Positions 3 to 61,815 of a stretch of DNA of 61,815 nucleotides are shown piece after piece (within the stretch, counting starts at the first letter, position 1; the number at the start of each line of letters is the position of its first letter). The notes below the pieces were generated by a model, which saw only the letters and a program-made list of their open reading frames with translations, was not told where the DNA came from and made no database searches. This DNA comes from a virus. Made by a program: the position numbers and the translations under genes. The DNA is taken from the IMG/VR virus record IMGVR_UViG_3300026116_000042, positions 1 through 61,815 of that record; one strand, 5' to 3'.

Positions 3-533
3 TCCGAGGGTGAGAAGTTCAGTCACACTTATCCTGAGCGAATGTGGCCCAAGCACGCTGAAATGCCACCCCCAGAAGTTGGGTCTGGTTTTTTGCCGAC
101 CCAGCATGGGATTCGATTTGACTATGGCGATCTTCAGGATGTGGTAAATCAGCTCGCAGCAACTCCGATGACTCGTCAGGCCTACCTCCCGATCTGGTTT
201 CCAGAGGACACTGGAGTTGTTCATGGTAAGCGGGTTCCCTGCACACTCGGGTATCACTTCATCATCACCCCGAGCGGATATCTCGACATCTCATACTTCA
301 TGCGATCAACTGACCTGCTAAGGCACTTCCAGGATGACGTCTACATGGCAATGCGACTTGCCCAATGGGTTGTCGAGCGCATCCAGCAGGTGTGGGATGG
401 TCGAGATTCTGGGTCCCCTATCGCTGAGCTCAAGGTTGGCAAGCTGATCTTCCACACTGCCAACATGCATATCTTCGAGGGCGACAACGCGTTGATCGAT
501 TTCTGGAAGACTCAAGATCGGTTGTGGTACTAA
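3..533 (+). CDS. ThyA-family pyrimidine C5-transferase, probable dCMP hydroxymethylase (C-terminal part)
   Basis: The reading frame is open from base 3 and lacks its start; the missing N-terminal part lies at 61519-61815. Seen: FSHTYPERMWPK near the start, the nucleophile Cys in RVPC (codon 240-242), the phosphate-binding RSTD (303-314), and a late HTANMHIF block. These are ThyA-superfamily landmarks. Known: in thymidylate synthase an Asn eleven residues after the Arg of RSxD selects dUMP; T4 dCMP hydroxymethylase has Asp there. Here that codon (336-338) is Asp. I infer hydroxymethylation (or methylation) of dCMP using methylene-tetrahydrofolate, in the cytoplasm, to make a modified precursor for DNA. 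The stop overlaps the start of the dCMP deaminase gene (TAATG). A diverged thymidylate synthase remains possible, but thyX elsewhere makes that redundant. Confidence 0.8.
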   Translation, partial: SEGEKFSHTYPERMWPKHAEMPPPEVGSGFLPTQHGIRFDYGDLQDVVNQLAATPMTRQAYLPIWFPEDTGVVHGKRVPCTLGYHFIITPSGYLDISYFMRSTDLLRHFQDDVYMAMRLAQWVVERIQQVWDGRDSGSPIAELKVGKLIFHTANMHIFEGDNALIDFWKTQDRLWY

Positions 534-967
534 TGGAGCGAATTAGTCGATCAGATATGCTGATGGAGATGGCCTTTACTGCCGCCAAGAGGGGCACATG
601 CAGTAGATTACAGGTCGGGGCAATCATCAGTAAGGATGGTCGAGTTATCTCAACAGGTTACAATGGTGTACCTGCTGGATTGCCCCATTGTGTTCACAAC
701 CACCTCATGCTCGAGAGTGCTGAGATGGGTTGTACTCAGGCTGAACATGCTGAGCGAAACGCCATTTACTATGCGGCTCGGTATGGAACTGCGCTCGAGG
801 GGTCAGTCATCCATACTACCCATGCTCCCTGCGAAAACTGCGCGAGAGCCATTATCAACGCTGGTATTCGACAGGTGACCTACACCATTCCCTATCGCAA
901 GACAGAAGGAATTGACCTTCTCAGGCAGGCGGGGATTGATGTCATCGAAGTGTCAATACATAAGTGA
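533..967 (+). CDS. dCMP/cytidine deaminase family protein
   Basis: Zinc-dependent deaminase of 144 residues, probably converting dCMP to dUMP, the substrate of ThyX. Seen: zinc and catalytic motif HAE at residues 72-74, PCENC at 99-103, and the dCMP-deaminase-like N-terminal TCSRLQVGAII and GYNG blocks. I chose ATG 533 because it forms TAATG with the preceding stop; GTG 524 is possible. It sits directly between the dCMP hydroxymethylase-like gene and the DNA polymerase, so it competes for the same dCMP pool. Length is normal for the family. Confidence 0.88.
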   Translation: MERISRSDMLMEMAFTAAKRGTCSRLQVGAIISKDGRVISTGYNGVPAGLPHCVHNHLMLESAEMGCTQAEHAERNAIYYAARYGTALEGSVIHTTHAPCENCARAIINAGIRQVTYTIPYRKTEGIDLLRQAGIDVIEVSIHK

Positions 968-979: not shown

Positions 980-3511
980 ATGCCGGTAATCGTTCAATGG
1001 TGCCCATACTGCAATGAGCACGAGGTCCAGTCATTCGCCAAGGGTGCGCTCGACGCTCGTATCGCGGTAGTCACCAATCGTAAGAACTCAGGCAAGTTCC
1101 AGCAGGCCCTTGAACTTGAACTGACCCAAATGGGCCTGGATGTCAATTCCCTGTATTTCACTCCGGTAATCAAGTGTAGTGACTTTGAAACAACTCTCAC
1201 AAACAAGCAACTAAAGGAACATGCGGCAACGCATTTGATTCCCGAGCTTGAGTTACTACCCAATCTCGAACTTGTACTTGCTCTCGGTAATGAGGTACTA
1301 CTTGCCACCACTGGTAAGTCGGGCATTACTAAGTATCGGGCTAAGCCGTTCGATGGACCAAAGGGTTCAACGGTTATCGCCACCATTTCACCGTCAGCTG
1401 TCAATCGTAACCCAGGCCAGAAACCGGGTTACCTTGGTGATCTTCGGTTGTTTGCGAATCGAGCCAAGGGGCAGACATCAGGTATCCCTAAGCCATCATA
1501 CCTGACAGTCGATACCAAAGAGGCATTTCAGAAGATGCTTCGTATCCTCGACATGACTGATGAAATCTACATCGACATCGAGACCAAGGGAGGTGAGTAT
1601 TACGAGGCTGAAAAGGGATCAAAGATGATCTCTCTTGCAGCTACCTGCGTAATCGTCACTCCTCTCGGGGTAAAGAAGCGAACGGTATTCGCTCTACCCC
1701 TTGGCCATGTTCAGTCACCATGGCGCAATCAATGGCAACACATCCTCGAAATCTTCGGTCGCCATTGCAAGAACATTCGTAAGACTGTTGCCCACAATGG
1801 ATCATTCGATCTAAAGTGGCTCATCACCTATGGTGTCCATCTGACTCTAACCTTTGATACAATGCTAGCCATTGCCCTGCTAAACGAGAATGTTCAAAAG
1901 GGCCTCAAGCCTCAGGCAATCGCTCGGCTTGGTGTGGAGCCATGGGGTATCGACACTGGCGACCTGGATAAATACCCAATCAGTGAAGTGCTAGAGTACA
2001 ACGTTCTTGATACTTGGTACATGTACTTCATCAAGCAACAGTTGGTCGAAGAGCTAAAGAAGCAACCTCGTCTTGCTCGGATCATGGCTAAGCTTTGGAT
2101 GCCCGCTCAGAATGAATTGCTCCCATGCGAGATTCGTGGAGCCTGGCTCGATGTTGATCGACTCAAGGAACGCAAGCCAATTGCTCAGCAGAACCTGCTC
2201 GACATCGAACAACGAATTCGAGACGCGGCTGAATTGCCCGACCCCAGTGATCCTGACTGGCCTGCAACGATCAAACATCTGAAGTCTGGTGACAAGCGTA
2301 TTCCCTGGACTGAGAATTTCAATGCCTCGATGTTCGCTCGATGGATGCTGTTCGACTGGTGCGGTCTTCCAGTTGAAGAGCGGGGTAAGGATAAGGAAGA
2401 TGGTCGACCTGGCGATCCAAGTATGCGTGAGGGGTTGCTTGAAGCACTAAAGGGCAAGCATCCAGTTGTTGAACCCATGCTTGAAAGGGTTACAGCTAAC
2501 AAGCACCTAACCTCGTTCTTCAATCCCTATGAGGAGTTGTACGATGAAGATCATCGTATCCACACAACATTCAAGCTGGCGGGCACAGTTACTGGCAGAC
2601 TATCATCCGGGAAGTCCGACCAAGATAAAATCAGTGGTACTCGAGGTAAGATGCGCGGTGTCAACCTGCAGCAAGTACCTCGAGACCCTTTCATTCGAGG
2701 CCTGTTTGGAGCACCTCCGGGTTGGACATTCGTTGAAAGTGACTACAGCCAAATCGAACTTAGGATCGCTGCCTACCTAGCCAACGAAACAACGATGAAG
2801 CACCTGTACTCGATTGGCGAGGACATTCACCTTCAGACTGCTATGCGAGTTACCGGGTTGCCTGCTAGTCAGGTTACCAAGGAGATTCGCAAGAAGGTTG
2901 GTAAGCCGGTTAACTTCGGTTTTCTCTATGGAATGGGCCCAGCAAAGTTCATCGTCACTGCATTTGAGAACTATGGTTCTACCTTCAGCATTGAAGAGGC
3001 CCAGGCTGCTCGCAAGGCCTACTTCGACTTGTATCCCAAATTGCTTCCCTGGCACGCCAAAATGCGTCGCCTCGTCAACGAATATGGGCGCGTCGAAAGT
3101 CCTCTGGGACGCGTCCGGCACCTCCCTGACATCTACTCACCTGATAAGGGGGTGCGCATGGAAGCCGAACGGCAGGCGATCAATAGCCCCGTTCAAGGAT
3201 TCGCTTCTGACCTCGCACTATTGTCGATGATCGTTATCAACCAGCGATTCCGCGAACAGAACATCAAGGGTTACTGCATCGGTCTGGTACATGACGCTCT
3301 CAACTATGAGATTCGTGACGACTACCTGAGTCGGGCTCTCCCGATTATCAAGGATACAATGGAAGACATGGATATTGTCTACAGGAAGTTCGGTACTGTA
3401 GTTGACATCCCGATCATTGCCGACCTCGCCGTGGGTCAACACTGGGGTGACAAGGTCGAGCTTACAGAGGATCAGGTCTACGACTTCAAACTCGAGTATA
3501 AGGGAGCTTAG
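980..3511 (+). CDS. DNA polymerase I family, with UDG-like N-terminal and 3'-5' exonuclease domains
   Basis: Replicative family A polymerase, 843 residues. Seen in order: residues 1-165 resemble the type 4/5 uracil-DNA glycosylase fold (TPVIKC, LALGNEV, a late SPSAVN), but the catalytic GE-PG block is missing, so this domain is probably structural or DNA-binding. The 3'-5' exonuclease carries DIE at 199-201, NGSFD at 273-277 and YNVLDT at 340-345. The polymerase domain has motif A DYSQIELR near 587, motif B RKKVGKPVNFGFLYG near 637-651 and motif C HDA near 770, where most relatives have HDE. Known: SPO1, which has hydroxymethyluracil DNA, also has a UDG-PolA fusion. No 5'-3' exonuclease domain. 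The O-helix aromatic is Phe. Confidence 0.95.
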   Translation: MPVIVQWCPYCNEHEVQSFAKGALDARIAVVTNRKNSGKFQQALELELTQMGLDVNSLYFTPVIKCSDFETTLTNKQLKEHAATHLIPELELLPNLELVLALGNEVLLATTGKSGITKYRAKPFDGPKGSTVIATISPSAVNRNPGQKPGYLGDLRLFANRAKGQTSGIPKPSYLTVDTKEAFQKMLRILDMTDEIYIDIETKGGEYYEAEKGSKMISLAATCVIVTPLGVKKRTVFALPLGHVQSPWRNQWQHILEIFGRHCKNIRKTVAHNGSFDLKWLITYGVHLTLTFDTMLAIALLNENVQKGLKPQAIARLGVEPWGIDTGDLDKYPISEVLEYNVLDTWYMYFIKQQLVEELKKQPRLARIMAKLWMPAQNELLPCEIRGAWLDVDRLKERKPIAQQNLLDIEQRIRDAAELPDPSDPDWPATIKHLKSGDKRIPWTENFNASMFARWMLFDWCGLPVEERGKDKEDGRPGDPSMREGLLEALKGKHPVVEPMLERVTANKHLTSFFNPYEELYDEDHRIHTTFKLAGTVTGRLSSGKSDQDKISGTRGKMRGVNLQQVPRDPFIRGLFGAPPGWTFVESDYSQIELRIAAYLANETTMKHLYSIGEDIHLQTAMRVTGLPASQVTKEIRKKVGKPVNFGFLYGMGPAKFIVTAFENYGSTFSIEEAQAARKAYFDLYPKLLPWHAKMRRLVNEYGRVESPLGRVRHLPDIYSPDKGVRMEAERQAINSPVQGFASDLALLSMIVINQRFREQNIKGYCIGLVHDALNYEIRDDYLSRALPIIKDTMEDMDIVYRKFGTVVDIPIIADLAVGQHWGDKVELTEDQVYDFKLEYKGA

Positions 3512-21378: not shown

Positions 21379-21641
21379 TCGACCCATTCCAGGCCGCAAA
21401 CCGACCCGGTGTTCCACACAGGCCTACTCGGCTTGAGCGGAAGTATGCAAGACTGAAGGCGGAAGTGGCGCGCTATAAGGCGCAGGTTGAGGCTTATTCA
21501 GATAAGTCCATCGCTGGTGCCATGTTCGGCGACAAGCTCAAGGTCCCAACTCTTACACTGAACTCGCTGGCAATTGCTCAAGGCAAGCTCGCGGCGTTCG
21601 AGTCTCATCACCCGGAGTTCCAGATTGGGGACATGAAATGA
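21375..21641 (+). CDS. Coiled-coil hypothetical protein (88 aa)
   Basis: Long amphipathic helix (LERKYARLKAEVARYKAQVE) typical of a coiled coil; ATGA overlaps at both ends. Lies directly before thyX. Confidence 0.55.
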   Translation: MIDPFQAANRPGVPHRPTRLERKYARLKAEVARYKAQVEAYSDKSIAGAMFGDKLKVPTLTLNSLAIAQGKLAAFESHHPEFQIGDMK

Positions 21642-22333
21642 TGCCAAACTTCCGTTCTGACGTCGTTGTCAAGCTCATTGACTCGATGGCGTCTGACATG
21701 GCTGTCACCAGAGCAGCTCAGGTGTCAGTCAAGGGGGAAAATAACCCTGAAACTGACATGCCAAGGCTCATTCGGTACCTCATGGAGAACCGACATGGCT
21801 CGCCATTCGAGCATTCGGTGTTTACCTTCTTCGTGGAGGCACCAATCTTTGTCTTTCGTGAGTGGCATCGGCATCGGATGTCTTCGATCAACGAAATGAG
21901 CGGGCGATACACCACGCTGAAGCCTGATTTCTACGTACCGGCGGCGAATCGGAAGCTCATGAACATCGGTACAAGCGCTCGCCCCGAGTTCGCGCCTGGT
22001 ACTCCTCAGCTTTCAAGGCTTGTCGAGAGCAATATCGCTGGTGTTTGCAGCGAAGCATGGGTTAGTTACCAGGAAATGCTCGCCGCAGGGGTTGCCAACG
22101 AGGTTGCGAGGCTTGTTTTACCAGTTACGACCTACTCGCAGATGTATTGGACTGTCAACGCACGATCGCTGATGAACTTTCTCTCCCTTCGGATCGATTC
22201 GCCTGACTCGACACACCGTAGTCGACCCCAGTGGGAGATTCAGATGGGCGCTGAACAGATGGAGGCAGAGTTTGCACGCCTCATGCCACACACCCACGAG
22301 GCATTCGTTCAGTCAGGACGGATGGCGCCATGA
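21638..22333 (+). CDS. thyX: Flavin-dependent thymidylate synthase
   Basis: ThyX, 231 residues: makes dTMP from dUMP with FAD, NADPH and methylene-tetrahydrofolate. Seen: the signature RHRX7S (RHRMSSINEMS, residues 78-88) then GRY, plus EVARLVLPVTTY and NARSLMNFLSLR, which bind dUMP and FAD. Its presence means dTMP supply does not depend on the two ThyA-superfamily genes at the window ends, which supports another substrate for them. ATGA overlaps on both sides. Confidence 0.95.
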   Translation: MMPNFRSDVVVKLIDSMASDMAVTRAAQVSVKGENNPETDMPRLIRYLMENRHGSPFEHSVFTFFVEAPIFVFREWHRHRMSSINEMSGRYTTLKPDFYVPAANRKLMNIGTSARPEFAPGTPQLSRLVESNIAGVCSEAWVSYQEMLAAGVANEVARLVLPVTTYSQMYWTVNARSLMNFLSLRIDSPDSTHRSRPQWEIQMGAEQMEAEFARLMPHTHEAFVQSGRMAP

Positions 22334-28754: not shown

Positions 28755-29156
28755 ATGGGTGACAAGAAGAAGTCCACACCCGAAGCAAAACAGGCAAATA
28801 AGGCCGCGGCATCTGGCGACGCAAAACGCGCTCGCACCGAGGCTCGCAAAGAGAAGAACCGACTCGCGAATGAGGCTCGCTATCGTGCGAATCTCGAGAA
28901 GGCCCAGATGAGAGGTCTCGAGCCGATCAAGGTCCCGGTGACCAAAGTCAAGACCATCAAGAAGGGGAAGAAGATCATCAAGCGGGTCGAGACTACTCCC
29001 CGCACTCTTTCGCCGGCCGAACTTCTGCGTCGAGATGATCGACTCCGCCGGCAACGTGAACGTGAGGCCCGAGAGGCTCTCGAGCAGGAAGCTCAGGATT
29101 CGCTTCTCAACGACATCGAACAGCGGCTCTTGACCGCAGACCTCGAAGTGCTCTGA
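28755..29156 (+). CDS. Basic coiled-coil protein (133 aa)
   Basis: Highly charged: Lys/Arg/Ala-rich N-terminus, then KVPVTKVKTIKKGKKIIKRV, then a long Arg/Glu helix. Ribosome site AAAGGA. Stop overlaps the next ATG. Likely nucleic-acid binding; not recognised. Confidence 0.58.
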   Translation: MGDKKKSTPEAKQANKAAASGDAKRARTEARKEKNRLANEARYRANLEKAQMRGLEPIKVPVTKVKTIKKGKKIIKRVETTPRTLSPAELLRRDDRLRRQREREAREALEQEAQDSLLNDIEQRLLTADLEVL

Positions 29157-29665
29157 TGGATCAGCCGGAGTGGTTTTTCTCTGATGCTCTCCTGAGCTCA
29201 GATGAGAAGTATCGATACACCCTCGAGCGCAAGTGGGATCGTAGTAGTTGGTCACTCCCCATCGTAATGCTCAACCCGAGCACAGCTGACGCGTCAATCG
29301 ATGATCCCACAATCAAGTCGTGCATGAGAGTGGCTCGAGCCAATGGGTGGGGGGGCATCTTTGTGATGAATCTCTACGCATATCGTACGACCTACCCATA
29401 CATGCTTGAACAGGAAGGGTACCCTGAGGGCCCTAACAACGATAAGCATCTCGAAGCCATGCTGGAAACCTGTCGAGAACAGGGTGTTTCAATCATGGTC
29501 GCTTGGGGTAAGCATGCTCAAAAAGACCGAGTCAACAAGTTCGTGCAACAGGCAGCAGGTGTGGATTTGCTTTGCTGGAAGCAGAACCTTGATGGCTCCC
29601 CTCGACACCCGCTTTACGCCCCTGGGCATGCACGTCTGATCGATTTCAACCTAGATATGGTATGA
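29156..29665 (+). CDS. DUF1643 family protein
   Basis: Protein of 169 residues. Seen: VMLNPSTADASIDDPTI, MNLYAYRTTYP, MVAWGKHA and DGSPRHPLY, the ordered conserved blocks of DUF1643. Known: widespread in phages and bacteria, function not established. TGATG-type coupling with the gene before. Confidence 0.85.
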   Translation: MDQPEWFFSDALLSSDEKYRYTLERKWDRSSWSLPIVMLNPSTADASIDDPTIKSCMRVARANGWGGIFVMNLYAYRTTYPYMLEQEGYPEGPNNDKHLEAMLETCREQGVSIMVAWGKHAQKDRVNKFVQQAAGVDLLCWKQNLDGSPRHPLYAPGHARLIDFNLDMV

Positions 29666-57617: not shown

Positions 57618-57903
57618 TCCAACTGATCCTGAGGGCTGGCACCAATGCCATTTCTGCGGTCAAGATGTTGACAAGGATGGGTATGAAGATTCTGCCCATA
57701 CTAAGCGTCACTTCCTAAGCGATTGCCGACCCGACTTGGTCGAGCATGAGATTGGTCCGATCTGTACGTGGCCTCTCATCACCGAACCCGGGTATGAATA
57801 CCTCAACGAGGAGCTTGGTCGACCCAACTGCTACGCTTACCAAGATTCGGATGGTAAGTGGACTGAAGAACACATTCACTTCTACCCCGATGGACCGATG
57901 TGA
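57607..57903 (+). CDS. Zinc-finger-like protein (98 aa)
   Basis: ATG 57607 overlaps the end of the glycosylase-like gene. WHQCHFCGQDVDKDG...HTKRHFLSDC: a Cys/His metal site. Stop overlaps the helicase GTG. Confidence 0.55.
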   Translation: MGIDPTDPEGWHQCHFCGQDVDKDGYEDSAHTKRHFLSDCRPDLVEHEIGPICTWPLITEPGYEYLNEELGRPNCYAYQDSDGKWTEEHIHFYPDGPM

Positions 57904-59420
57904 CGTACTATAAGTTCAAGAAGAAACCATACAAGCACCAGGTCGCTGCCCTCAAAGACCTACTTGCTAGAGGTTGGGGTGGTGCCCTCCTTATGGAACC
58001 TCGAACAGGTAAGACCAAGGTAGTTTGCGATTACATTGGCGTGTTGCATCTCGCCAAGGGAGTCAATCGGGTCTTGCTCATCATGCCGGTCGTTGCTATC
58101 GAGGTGTGGAAGAGGGAACTGAGAGAAAACCTCCCATTCAAGTTTCGGATGACAGTTTGGGATAAGACTGGACGTAAGGAAGTTGATCTTCCTAAGTTTG
58201 GGTCTGACATCCTAGACATCGTAATCGTGAACTACGACGCCTTCGCTCAGCCTGGTACCATGATTACCAATCGCAAGGGTGAGCGAGTTCGATCGAAGAG
58301 TCGTGGTGGACGATTCGACATGAAGAAGAAGTTCAGGCTCTGGCAACCTCAGTTGATTGTCCTCGACGAGTCACACCGTATCAAGTCGCCTTCCGCAAAG
58401 AAATCCACTGCCATGCATTCACTGGCAAAACTTCCTGAATACAAAGTCATCATGACTGGTACAGTGGTAACAAAGAGTAAAAAGCTCTACGATGTGTACA
58501 GCCAGTGGTTGTTCCTCAATCCTGAGCGTTTCAAGGGTATGACCTTCGCCCAGTTCAAATCTCGCTATGGTCGCTGGGTTGAGATGAATCACTACGCTTT
58601 GTGGAAAGGCTCACGTAATACTGAAGAGCTGCATACGCTCATGCACATGGATTCCTTCAGCATCACTCGGGAAGAGTGCTATGATCTACCAAAGATGACG
58701 CCCCAGATCATCCCAGTTGCTTTGGAATACAACGAATCTGGTCGTATCTACGATGAGATGGCTGAGGATATGGTCGCTCGAATTGAGTCTGGTGAGATTA
58801 CTGAGGCTACAATTAGATTGGTCCAGGGCCTTCGACTTCGACAGATTACTTCTGGTATCACCAAAACTAGCCCCACACCTGAGTATCCTAAGGGTCGACT
58901 CATGGTAATCGGGAGCGAGAAGTTGCGGGCGATTGAGGAACGACTTGAGGACCTCATGGAAGCTGATGAGAAGGTAGTCATTGGTGCACTCTGGCGAGGG
59001 GACATTGCTCGTCTTGAGGCTGTCGGCAAGAAACTCAAGGTCCCCACCTTTAGTATTCATGGTGGTGTCAAGCAACGCGATCGTGGTAGGATTCCAGAAG
59101 AGTTCAAGAAAGTCTCTGGTGGAGCTATTGTCATCGGTCAACCTCAGGCGGCAAGTGAGGCAATCGACCTATCAGCTGCATCCATCATGCAGTGGTACAG
59201 TTTGCCTCAATCATGGGTTCAATTCAAACAGATGTCGGACCGCATCGCTCTAAGCGACAAACCCACGTTCCATGAGTTTTATCTAGCCCAAGGTACCATC
59301 GACTTCATGGCCTATCAAACGCTAATGGAGGATGGGGACATTGGAAAGAAGATGATTCAATCCCCAGAACGACTTCTTAGGTTGGGGCAGTCATTCGACG
59401 ACGCGGATGATTGGGATTGA
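57900..59420 (+). CDS. SNF2-type DNA helicase
   Basis: 506 residues. Seen: KPYKHQVAALKDLL at the start, Walker A EPRTGKTK near 34-41, LLIMPV (motif Ia), DESH box VLDESHRIKS near 152, MTGT (motif III), and a C-terminal half ending in QASEAIDL-type and QMSDR (motif VI-like) blocks. Superfamily 2, SNF2/RapA-like. Translocates on double-stranded DNA in replication or repair. GTG start, overlapping stop TGA. Confidence 0.88.
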   Translation: MTYYKFKKKPYKHQVAALKDLLARGWGGALLMEPRTGKTKVVCDYIGVLHLAKGVNRVLLIMPVVAIEVWKRELRENLPFKFRMTVWDKTGRKEVDLPKFGSDILDIVIVNYDAFAQPGTMITNRKGERVRSKSRGGRFDMKKKFRLWQPQLIVLDESHRIKSPSAKKSTAMHSLAKLPEYKVIMTGTVVTKSKKLYDVYSQWLFLNPERFKGMTFAQFKSRYGRWVEMNHYALWKGSRNTEELHTLMHMDSFSITREECYDLPKMTPQIIPVALEYNESGRIYDEMAEDMVARIESGEITEATIRLVQGLRLRQITSGITKTSPTPEYPKGRLMVIGSEKLRAIEERLEDLMEADEKVVIGALWRGDIARLEAVGKKLKVPTFSIHGGVKQRDRGRIPEEFKKVSGGAIVIGQPQAASEAIDLSAASIMQWYSLPQSWVQFKQMSDRIALSDKPTFHEFYLAQGTIDFMAYQTLMEDGDIGKKMIQSPERLLRLGQSFDDADDWD

Positions 59421-59486: not shown

Positions 59487-60014
59487 ATGCTCATCGTAGA
59501 AGGACCGGATGGTGCCGGTAAAACAACGCTGATTCAGGCTCTGCAACATGAGCTCGGGCTTCCCATTGCACCGCGAGTGGTCAGCAAGGATGCTGAAGCC
59601 ATGGTGGATTTGCCCGCATGGGTTGAAATGAACCTCTCTGAGGGCTTTCAGCATAGGATCTTCGATCGACACCGGCTAATCAGCGAGCCTGTCTATGGCC
59701 CAATCCTTCGTCACGATCAAGAAGCCGGCTTTGACGACATCGAGACGATGCAGAGGTGGATGTTCAAGTTCTACAACTTGCAGCCAATCATCATCTACTG
59801 CATTCCGCCGCTGGATACCGTACTGAAGAACATCGCGGGCGACATCGAAAATCAGGTGGTGTGGGATCACATTCGGGGTATCTACTCTGCATATGTGGCT
59901 CGAGCTGCGATCGACTGCCGCGCTGGTCGTAATGTCTTCATCTACGACTACACCCAAGACAACACCCATAACCTCATCTCAATCGTGAAAGGTATCCTGA
60001 ACCGTGTCATCTAA
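59487..60014 (+). CDS. Deoxynucleoside monophosphate kinase
   Basis: 175 residues, thymidylate-kinase-like P-loop kinase. Seen: P-loop EGPDGAGKTT (residues 5-14), and FDRHRLISEPVYG with the DR-H/E substrate motif near 67-79. I infer phosphorylation of a normal or modified dNMP to dNDP; T4 gp1 does this for hydroxymethyl-dCMP. Its place with MazG and the two ThyA-like genes supports the modified substrate. Stop overlaps the MazG GTG region by 11 bp. Confidence 0.82.
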   Translation: MLIVEGPDGAGKTTLIQALQHELGLPIAPRVVSKDAEAMVDLPAWVEMNLSEGFQHRIFDRHRLISEPVYGPILRHDQEAGFDDIETMQRWMFKFYNLQPIIIYCIPPLDTVLKNIAGDIENQVVWDHIRGIYSAYVARAAIDCRAGRNVFIYDYTQDNTHNLISIVKGILNRVI

Positions 60015-60426
60015 CTTCGACGATGTCGGTGAATTCCACCGCAAGTTTGGGCTACCTCGAGTCAAGCCATTCGAGATGCCTCATCCAACAAATCTTCACA
60101 TGGACCCCGCAGTAATGGACTTCAGGTTCAAGTTCCTGCAGGAGGAACTCAAGGAATTCAAAGAAGGCATGGAAGCTGAGGACATCGTCGGAATGGCTGA
60201 TGCTCTCATCGATCTGGTCTATGTGGCCATGGGTACAGCTCACATGTTGGGCTTGCCCTGGCAGGAGCTCTGGGACGATGTTCAACGGGCCAACATGTCT
60301 AAGGAACGGGCTGCCGAAGATGGAAGCAACAGCAAGCGGGGATCAGGTCTGGATGTAATCAAGCCTGAGGGTTGGCGGGGACCTCACGGTGCTTCGATTC
60401 TTAAGCGTCATGGATTTGACATATGA
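60004..60426 (+). CDS. MazG-like nucleotide pyrophosphohydrolase
   Basis: 140 residues, GTG start. Seen: EELKEF near 41-46 and ADALIDLVYVAMG near 64-76, the EExxE and DxxxD metal motifs of the all-alpha NTP-PPase family, then the KPEGWRGP end seen in phage members. Known: T4 dCTPase (gp56) has this fold and breaks dCTP to dCMP, keeping plain C out of DNA and feeding hydroxymethylation. I infer a similar dCTPase/dUTPase job. Confidence 0.85.
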   Translation: MSSNFDDVGEFHRKFGLPRVKPFEMPHPTNLHMDPAVMDFRFKFLQEELKEFKEGMEAEDIVGMADALIDLVYVAMGTAHMLGLPWQELWDDVQRANMSKERAAEDGSNSKRGSGLDVIKPEGWRGPHGASILKRHGFDI

Positions 60427-61457
60427 GACACTACACAGCACCAACAATGACTCAGCTCTATGATGACTTGACTACAAGTCTTATGGAGGGCACCGAAGAC
60501 GAGCTCGACATCATCTCCTCGGTCGATGTGCAGATTCATGACATCGTTGCCGAAGCAGACTCAATGGATTGGGACTTCGACTTCAAATCAGCATGGCTCA
60601 CGAAGTCTCGTTGGTCAATGATGGTACGTCAGTACATAGACCCAGAAGACTTGGAAGCATGGATCGGGCAAGTCACTAAGAAGATCGGGGTCAAGAACCG
60701 TGGAATTGCAGTCCTCAGAACAAAGCTCGTCAAGCCAAGAGGAGGTGCTGCTACAGGTCACACGAACAAGCAAACTCGGACCTGGGGAGCTTGCATGCTT
60801 AACATCAGCTATAAAGCCCTCCCTGTACCTCAAATTACGCTCTACTCTCGTACCAGTTATCTCGGGTACATCGGAGCCCTCGACCTCAGTGTAGCTTGGA
60901 TGGTCGGGAAGTACCTTGCCAAGGAACTTGGCATGGATGTCAAGGACTTCAAGTTTGTCTGGGTCAACCAGGCGATCCAGTGGCACAACTTCAAGTCGCT
61001 AGCGTTCATGTTGAATCACACCGACAAGGCAAAGCGGAAAGCGTATCGCCGACTCCTCATGGAGCCATCGAAGGAACTTCGTGTGGATGAGAAACGTCGC
61101 ATTCTCAACTCGCCGGCGATCAAGCTTTCACGTAAGTGGCTTCAGAAGATCATTCGAGAAGATGCAACTGGTCGTACCTATGGCGATCTGACTTATAACA
61201 CATTCCGACGAATCATCCGACGATTCCACACCGAAGTCTTTGGGCTGGAGCACGCCAAGACATTCGAGGGTTGGTCTTATTACAAGACTGGGGATAAGGT
61301 TGGGCAGCAGAAGGAATATTTCAAGGCCTATGGTTTGCTCCCCAGCGTAAAGGTGGATACCCTTGATTTGTCGCCGATTGGTATGCCCATGAATCGTAAG
61401 TACGGTGAGGCATTCGTCGGGGGCGACGATGACGACTCCGATGACGATGACGAGTAA
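60423..61457 (+). CDS. Second ThyA-superfamily protein, function unknown
   Basis: 344 residues. Seen: TRTWGACMLN (possible nucleophile Cys), LYSRTSYLGYIGALDLSVAW, and WVNQAIQWHNFKS, laid out like the Cys, RSxD...N/D and H-Y blocks of ThyA. The residue eleven after the Arg (60849) is Asp (60882), as in the next gene. Extra C-terminal 120 residues end in an acidic tail. ATGA overlap with MazG. Could be a second nucleotide C5-transferase, an inactive partner subunit, or an enzyme that further alters the hydroxymethyl group. The superfamily assignment is by motif reading only. Confidence 0.6.
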   Translation: MRHYTAPTMTQLYDDLTTSLMEGTEDELDIISSVDVQIHDIVAEADSMDWDFDFKSAWLTKSRWSMMVRQYIDPEDLEAWIGQVTKKIGVKNRGIAVLRTKLVKPRGGAATGHTNKQTRTWGACMLNISYKALPVPQITLYSRTSYLGYIGALDLSVAWMVGKYLAKELGMDVKDFKFVWVNQAIQWHNFKSLAFMLNHTDKAKRKAYRRLLMEPSKELRVDEKRRILNSPAIKLSRKWLQKIIREDATGRTYGDLTYNTFRRIIRRFHTEVFGLEHAKTFEGWSYYKTGDKVGQQKEYFKAYGLLPSVKVDTLDLSPIGMPMNRKYGEAFVGGDDDDSDDDDE

Positions 61458-61518: not shown

Positions 61519-61815
61519 TTGAAGTATTACGCGAATGTGCAGGATTTCCGCGACCTCTTTCGGCTGATGCGAGATGAGTTGTACAATACCCCTGCGATCG
61601 CACGAGGGGAGTGGCAATCGATCCATGATCCGAATGTTCCGAAGGTTCGGGAGATGCTCCATGTCGCCTTCGAGTATCAGATGCCTCGACGAGCCGACGA
61701 TGCAGCATTCCTCACAGGTGCTCGGATGCCCTGGGCTGAAGATCACTTCCAGGAACGAGTAAGCGGGTTGCCCCTCAATCCTGCTCCCAGTGAGGCCTGG
61801 TGGCCATTTGCTTCC
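61519..61815 (+). CDS. ThyA-family, probable dCMP hydroxymethylase (N-terminal part)
   Basis: 99 codons to the window edge, starting at TTG 61519 after AGGAG. Seen: RGEWQSI, PWAEDHFQERVSGLPLNP and a late WWPFAS: the usual N-terminal blocks of phage ThyA-family proteins, which in relatives run into FSHTYPERMW, present at bases 24-53. So this is the front of the gene that opens the window. The two halves are one frame apart as given; one missing base (or 3n+1) would join them into a protein of about 276 residues. Confidence 0.8.
   Translation, partial: MKYYANVQDFRDLFRLMRDELYNTPAIARGEWQSIHDPNVPKVREMLHVAFEYQMPRRADDAAFLTGARMPWAEDHFQERVSGLPLNPAPSEAWWPFAS

Follow-up and report, generated by a model that had tools for sequence, protein, structure and literature searches.

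Gene content of the locus and linkage of X and T

The analysis concerned a 344-residue protein (designated X) encoded near the end of a 61,815-nt stretch of viral DNA from an IMG/VR virus record, the whole of which is referred to here as the window. Gene X belongs to a cassette with the order helicase, kinase, MazG/dUTPase, X, T, dCMP deaminase and UDG-PolA, where T denotes the adjoining downstream homologue of dCMP-type thymidylate synthase (TS). The relevant features, in the order of the cassette, are as follows.

57900..59420, + strand: SNF2-like helicase, first gene of the cassette (PF00176, E 1.5e-14)
59487..60014, + strand: P-loop dNMP kinase ("thymidylate kinase"; phrog_761, E 3e-20)
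60004..60426, + strand: MazG/PRA-PH-like nucleotide pyrophosphohydrolase (PF01503, E 3.7e-14)
60423..61457, + strand: gene X, ATG start, 344 aa (phrog_13667, function unknown, E 2.6e-113)
60792..60794, + strand: codon of C124, the putative C6 nucleophile (equivalent to TS Cys146), 87/87 in the X alignment and in the TS Cys column when the gut-type relatives are aligned with T
60849..60851, + strand: codon of R143, equivalent to TS Arg166 (phosphate), 87/87
60882..60884, + strand: codon of D154, equivalent to TS position 177 (dCMP-type Asp), 87/87
61026..61454, + strand: helical domain added at the C terminus of X (about residues 202-344), with an acidic tail; the AfhB alignment stops at model residue 201
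61519..61815, + strand: gene T, 5′ part (99 aa), dCMP-type TS homologue interrupted at the window end, aligned with intact relatives
3..533, + strand: gene T, 3′ part (176 aa, including Cys, Arg and Asp177), interrupted at the window start (PF00303, E 1.2e-5; phrog_160)
524..967, + strand: dCMP deaminase (PF00383, E 1.6e-23)
980..3511, + strand: UDG-family A DNA polymerase fusion, adjoining the dCMP deaminase (PF00476, E 3.7e-70; PF03167, E 2e-5)
21638..22333, + strand: ThyX, flavin-dependent thymidylate synthase (PF02511, E 4.1e-50)

The start of T (position 61519) lies 61 bases downstream of X. The two halves of T can be joined in frame only if missing bases are supplied, and approximately a dozen residues are absent in comparison with gp76 of Curtobacterium phage Shrew. 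Since window positions 61815 and 1 interrupt this one gene, with about a dozen codons missing, the genome is probably circular or permuted and the record slightly short. The initial annotation had described two ThyA-superfamily genes in tandem; because the second of them, T, is split by the ends of the window and is not intact there, this arrangement was deduced from relatives, in which the two genes are contiguous.

Of 88 loci examined (the window, L089, included), 87 have T downstream of X; the exception (L010) is a sequence that ends inside X. In the 84 loci for which the X-T gap was determined its median was 97 nt; it did not exceed 60 nt in 37/84 and lay within 300 nt in 68, the longest being 1100 nt. 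These data support the view that X and T form an old, strictly kept tandem. When proteins of the window were used as queries against 85 loci, PolA was found in 83, the deaminase in 84, and the kinase and the helicase in 81 each. The MazG gene was detected by single-sequence search in only 7/85, probably because many loci carry a dUTPase-like protein in its place.

Two further genes of the window may be mentioned. The protein encoded at positions 26611-27108 matches the type I Thoeris inhibitor Tad3 (PF25185, E 2.7e-30), which makes this a likely counter-defence gene, and positions 29156-29665 encode a DUF1643 protein (PF07799, E 1.7e-34); a protein with the same domain appears in the gene table of phage AXL3 (PMC7504290).

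Conservation and predicted fold of X

No Pfam family matched X at E≤1, and its only PHROG match, phrog_13667, is the X family itself, with no stated function. Searches of X against PDB sequences (phmmer and profile) returned only chance matches, e.g. xylanase and ribosomal proteins, and this was likewise the case for the profile of the gut-type sister family described below. X is carried by 85 phage records of the INPHARED set (hosts: 68 Gordonia, 9 Mycobacterium, 4 Streptomyces, 2 Microbacterium, 1 Curtobacterium and 1 Mycobacteroides) and by 80 loci in IMG/VR. In the regions opened, the actinophage proteins are named "hypothetical protein", and our literature search found nothing on X. A scan of bacterial and archaeal genomes yielded only two loci, both on MAG contigs that are probably of phage origin, and X is therefore essentially a virus family.

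The residues C124, R143-T144-S145 and H188 of X occur in ThyA order, and C124, R143 and D154 agree in order and spacing with Cys146, Arg166 and residue 177 of TS. D154 follows R143 by eleven residues, an offset that is identical in T (RSTDLLRHFQDD, window 3-533). Taken by itself this spacing is weak evidence: the pattern C-x17-21-R-x10-D was present in 496/20000 shuffles of X, and the argument therefore rests on conservation and fold. Each of the three residues is retained in 87/87 sequences of the X family, 44/44 of the gut-type and 7/7 of the proteobacterial sister family, a degree of conservation that, at the level of sequence, makes the evidence strong. The invariant positions of the 87-sequence X alignment are R63, Y71, G122, C124, P136, S142, R143, Y146, D154, F178, W180, Q186, R263 and R267, with the reservation that the 87 rows of X contain database duplicates and close relatives and are not independent; duplicates (e.g. 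Muddy twice) also occur among the 89 rows of T. H188 is conserved in 83/87.

Two features of the alignment bear on the type of chemistry. The Asn177 of uracil-type enzymes is not present in X, and an Asp occupies the matching place in 87/87. No Glu is conserved at ≥90% over the 87 sequences, so that the Glu which activates methylene-folate is seemingly absent; the best candidate, E271 (77/87), lies within the added domain, and D35, which is Asp or Glu in 87/87, is located in a strand of the AlphaFold2 model. As the folate-activating Glu appears to have been lost, folate-dependent one-carbon transfer by X is unlikely.

The AlphaFold2 model of X, built from 15 homologues, had a mean pLDDT of 87.5 and a pTM of 0.84, and was weak at residues 105-109, 114-122 and in the tail. 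Foldseek comparison with the PDB gave 128 matches at E≤0.001, headed by the phage dCMP hydroxylase AfhB (9iqu, 2.7e-7) and the CMP hydroxymethylase MilA (8.3e-7), which were followed by T4 dCMP hydroxymethylase and thymidylate synthases. In VIA-align the model was superimposed on AfhB with Z 15.9 (187 residues, 3.8 A), on MilA with Z 15.5 (180 residues, 3.6 A) and on dUMP-type TS with Z≤12.6. At the level of the predicted structure, the TS fold of X is thus confirmed. AfhB covers only residues 1-201 of the model; residues 202-279 form helices, and the added domain contains R263 and R267, both invariant (87/87). A separate model of the gut-type sister (pLDDT 91.8) gave 13 Foldseek matches at E≤1e-3, all 13 of them to cytidylate enzymes (AfhB, MilA and T4 dCMP hydroxymethylase), and Z up to 10.2 against TS chains.

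The features read in the initial annotation from the sequence (Cys, Arg-Thr-Ser and His blocks in ThyA order, an Asp at the same eleven-residue offset as in the next gene, strong divergence within the ThyA superfamily and an extra C-terminal domain) were all borne out. The structural check proposed there returned a predicted ThyA fold, and the Cys, Arg and Asp fall in TS active-site columns in the gut-type relatives.

Comparison with characterized enzymes delimits what is peculiar to X. AfhB of phage HY126 (PDB 9iqu, 9iqc), on which our literature search found no publication, is the closest solved fold to both X and the gut-type sister (rank 1 for both models) and shares with X the order of Cys, Arg and Asp177; it differs in that its sequence aligns better with T than with X, in the lack of the C-terminal helical domain and in the retention of Glu58-like and Tyr94-like motifs (printed alignment read by eye). 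MilA (PDB 5jnh, 5b6d, 5b6e) shares with X the TS fold, a cytosine-type Asp (Asp186) and a helical C-terminal region, but it uses a catalytic Glu68 and His216/Tyr218 (PMC5175136), whereas X, aligned by eye, has Q186/H188 there and no comparably conserved Glu. In T4 gp42 dCMP hydroxymethylase (PDB 1b5d, 6a9a) the equivalents of C124 and D154 of X are Cys148 and Asp179, and methylene-folate is activated by Glu60 (PMC6400193), for which X appears, from the aligned position, to have no counterpart. With ThyA (PF00303) X shares the TS fold (TS chains, Z up to 12.6), but not the Pfam or profile match or Asn177.

Sister families, the partner T and its neighbours

When viral models were searched with X by Foldseek, Pseudomonas phage PMBT14 came up with an uncharacterised protein, encoded in the gene order kinase, pyrophosphohydrolase, X-like, TS, dCMP deaminase, PolA, i.e. 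in the same slot as X. This proteobacterial type comprises 18 records. In all of six further records that were opened the X-like gene precedes TS, in five of them directly; in Desulfofustis phage LS06 two small ORFs lie between the two, and in Pseudomonas phage Lebethron the TS was recognised through the T profile. Two records of this type (PP693299 and MW202455) carry the label "pyrimidine hmase synthase", which already places the sister proteins of X in the TS/hydroxymethylase superfamily. A third, gut type was found in gut and environmental phages, likewise in the slot of X and with T adjoining in 32/34 IMG/VR loci; the two loci without a visible T are L183 and L201, the latter having <200 bases after the gene.

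Profile comparison (hhalign) linked the three families with each other (X-gut 1.1e-11, X-proteobacterial 5.5e-7, gut-proteobacterial 1.8e-22). The actinophage X profile compared directly with T gave probabilities of 0.3-2.7%, i.e. no link, and the family relationship of X with TS therefore rests on the fold and on the gut type as a bridge. When the latter is aligned with T (E 0.0097), the Cys, the Arg, the Glu/Asp three residues on and the Asp share columns, as do Cys, Arg and Asp when it is aligned with AfhB (E 7.2e-4; X-AfhB 0.042).

The number of X-type genes per locus is not constant. One locus (L050, 7953-9883) has the order X-X-T, and two X-type genes precede T in several gut-type loci (L204, L205, L208, L172-L174), so that the ratio of X to T genes is not fixed. 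A different arrangement was seen in Microbacterium phage Huwbert (L025, 8400-10045), which has three consecutive TS-type genes: X lies immediately upstream of T (Asp177), and T is followed by a canonical TS (Asn177).

In the T sequences with data, Cys146 and Arg166 are each conserved in 87/87 and Asp177 in 86/87, the single Asn177 belonging to the extra canonical TS of Huwbert. A T profile made without canonical TS had MilA as its best match (6.6e-7), followed by an Asp mutant of TS and by AfhB, and T and the AfhB family are related with an hhalign E of 1.4e-14. T, too, is variable at the position that corresponds to the folate-activating Glu, and for this reason T is treated below as a presumed hydroxymethylase.

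The search for relatives of T retained the best 80 of 438. Among these best 80 loci, 61 had an X-type gene (59 with X in the flank, detected by the actinophage profile, one with X elsewhere in the record and one of the gut type), and in 19 none was found. Conversely, X without T was not found among the loci examined. To the phages with T alone belongs AXL3. Its gp29 (L234, 2236-3216), a 327-residue protein with a long extra C-terminal part that adjoins TS in the place of X, is labelled thymidylate kinase in the AXL3 paper (PMC7504290). It was considered as a candidate X and rejected, as it begins with a P-loop (by inspection) and matches none of the X, gut-type or proteobacterial profiles; AXL3 was classified as a T-without-X phage on this basis.

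The neighbourhoods of T with and without X were compared over 13 T-only loci (91 proteins scanned within approximately 5 kb, short and some other ORFs omitted; L157 was removed because it holds a gut-type X) and 14 X+T loci (87 of 125 ORFs, short and most polymerase ORFs omitted). The 91 T-only neighbours included FkbM methyltransferases (7), Methyltransf_24 (6), DegT aminotransferases (4), glutamine synthetase (4), CmcI (3), glycosyltransferase families 2 and 34 (3 and 2, respectively) and sugar dehydrogenases (3), whereas none of these families was found among the 87 proteins beside X+T. This contrast serves as a pointer, being confounded by the different lineages of the two sets and the large size of many T-only genomes. 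In the window, a Pfam scan that covered the ORFs other than the tail genes and several short ones found no glycosyltransferase or carbamoyltransferase, and none of the genes was recognised as a source of a tailoring co-substrate for X. In two T-only loci of large phages, T is followed by a glycosyltransferase-34/FkbM protein (L154, 6732-8270) or an FkbM methyltransferase (L143, 6725-7651), which are candidate cytosine-tailoring enzymes.

Possible role of X in cytosine modification

Several observations point to cytosine as the base concerned. In the MetaGPA study, viral contigs with modified cytosine were found to carry Asp177-type TS together with PRA-PH and dCMP deaminase (PMC8670742), and these are the same partner domains as T, MazG and the deaminase of the present cassette. 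That study highlights carbamoyltransferases as the next enzyme, unlike the X-T cassette; its main text contains neither "unknown function" nor "MazG", and X has no Pfam model by which it could be counted (PMC8670742). The DNA of AXL3 resisted 35/37 restriction enzymes and was cleaved only at sites composed of A/T (PMC7504290); as this phage has T and no X, the modification does not need X. A literature search found no base analysis of any X-carrying phage.

Both the fold of X and the kind of pathway to which it belongs are known, X being a new branch of that fold. It probably contributes to the synthesis of a chemically altered cytosine for phage DNA, probably as a second cytosine-nucleotide-modifying enzyme that acts after T. 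The explanation that we favour, tentatively and with slightly less than an even chance of being correct, is that X is an active enzyme of the TS/pyrimidine-hydroxymethylase fold working on a cytosine nucleotide, with T modifying C5 of dCMP first and X making a second change at C5. The analysis established the fold of X, its invariant residues, its linkage with T and the gene content of the cassette; the hydroxymethylase activity of T, the place of X after T, and the substrate, cofactor and product of X are inferred in the following way. T would act first on C5 of dCMP, the most likely product being 5-hydroxymethyl-dCMP. X would bind this product, with R143 on the phosphate, D154 on the N3/N4 edge of the cytosine and C124 adding to C6, and would then alter C5 once more with the aid of a non-folate cofactor; substitution or oxidation at 5-CH2OH via the C6 adduct would be fitting chemistry. 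The kinase would raise the product towards the triphosphate, the MazG/dUTPase-type protein would clear dCTP or dUTP, and UDG-PolA would incorporate the modified nucleotide into DNA. The roles of the kinase, the pyrophosphohydrolase and UDG-PolA in this scheme are those of their counterparts in T4-like systems, and in T4 itself a MazG-type dCTPase and a dNMP kinase accompany gp42. The next step in T4 is carried out by glucosyltransferases (PMC8670742), none of which was seen near X-T.

Two steps, a heteromer or a new base modification had all been suggested for the pair in the initial annotation. Two steps leading to a modified cytosine fit best, given that X was not found without T, that T occurs without X, and that T-only loci are rich in sugar- and methyl-transfer genes absent beside X-T; a new base is possible and unproved, and the heteromer received no support from co-evolution. 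In its explicit form the last proposal, which we consider unlikely, holds that X and T pair up in a mixed TS-type dimer and contribute arginines to each other's active sites, X providing specificity or channelling and no separate step. TS-fold dimers do take phosphate arginines from the other protomer, as in T4 dCMP hydroxymethylase (PMC6400193), and the genes lie side by side, often with the short gaps (≤60 nt) given above. However, X retains a Cys, Arg and Asp of its own in 87/87 sequences, and the varying copy number, with X-X-T in one locus and T preceded by a pair of X-like genes in several loci of the gut type, also speaks against a fixed dimer. Furthermore, the distance correlation between X and T over 78 loci (0.646) was lower than that of X with the helicase (0.846) or the polymerase (0.797), and the X-T partial correlation was 0.09, so that no co-evolution above the genome background was found and a tight heteromer is disfavoured.

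It is also rather improbable that X is a stand-alone hydroxylase (AfhB-like) or hydroxymethylase (MilA-like) of plain dCMP, with T performing another step or only draining dCMP. AfhB is indeed the closest fold for the models of both X and the gut type, but by sequence it is nearer to T than to X (hhalign 1.4e-14 vs 0.042), and it has the small-domain Glu and Tyr-Gly motifs (alignment read by eye), for which X offers no comparably conserved Glu; two enzymes modifying the same C5 of one nucleotide would, moreover, be expected to compete.

We regard as quite unlikely the proposal that X is a TS-fold tailoring enzyme acting after replication on 5hmC in DNA by means of a basic helix of its C-terminal domain. 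The invariant R263 and R267 of that domain would suit such a role, as would the group-transfer enzymes near T in T-only relatives, some of which may be expected to act on DNA, but every solved fold neighbour of X acts on mononucleotides, the added domain ends in an acidic tail, and any DNA-binding fold in it would be hypothetical.

Least plausible is ordinary thymidylate supply, with dTMP made by T and X as a relic or accessory, as most annotations imply and as the cassette of Gordonia phage Azira has been described (thymine synthesis; PMC10353413): both X and T carry Asp, not Asn, at position 177, the separate ThyX of the window renders both dispensable for dTMP, in Huwbert an additional TS, of the Asn type, adjoins the pair, and a relic would not retain 14 invariant residues over 87 sequences.

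To return to the favoured reading of X acting after T, its wider form would be that two TS-fold enzymes in series produce an undescribed cytosine modification at the nucleotide stage without sugar or methyl transferases, that a common cassette is used by phages whose hosts are Actinobacteria, Proteobacteria and gut bacteria (mycobacteriophage Muddy included), and that X performs, without folate, new chemistry on the C6-cysteine adduct. As a whole, this is a conceivable but doubtful proposition.

X, mostly "hypothetical" in public records, is an old, separate branch of the TS fold tied to cytosine-type TS in at least three phage groups. If the proposed role is true, many well-studied phages (85 + 18 records) would have a modified cytosine that apparently has never been looked for, with consequences for restriction, CRISPR cutting, sequencing and phage therapy. 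The last of these would be affected because Muddy, which has been used in phage therapy, belongs to the X+T set.
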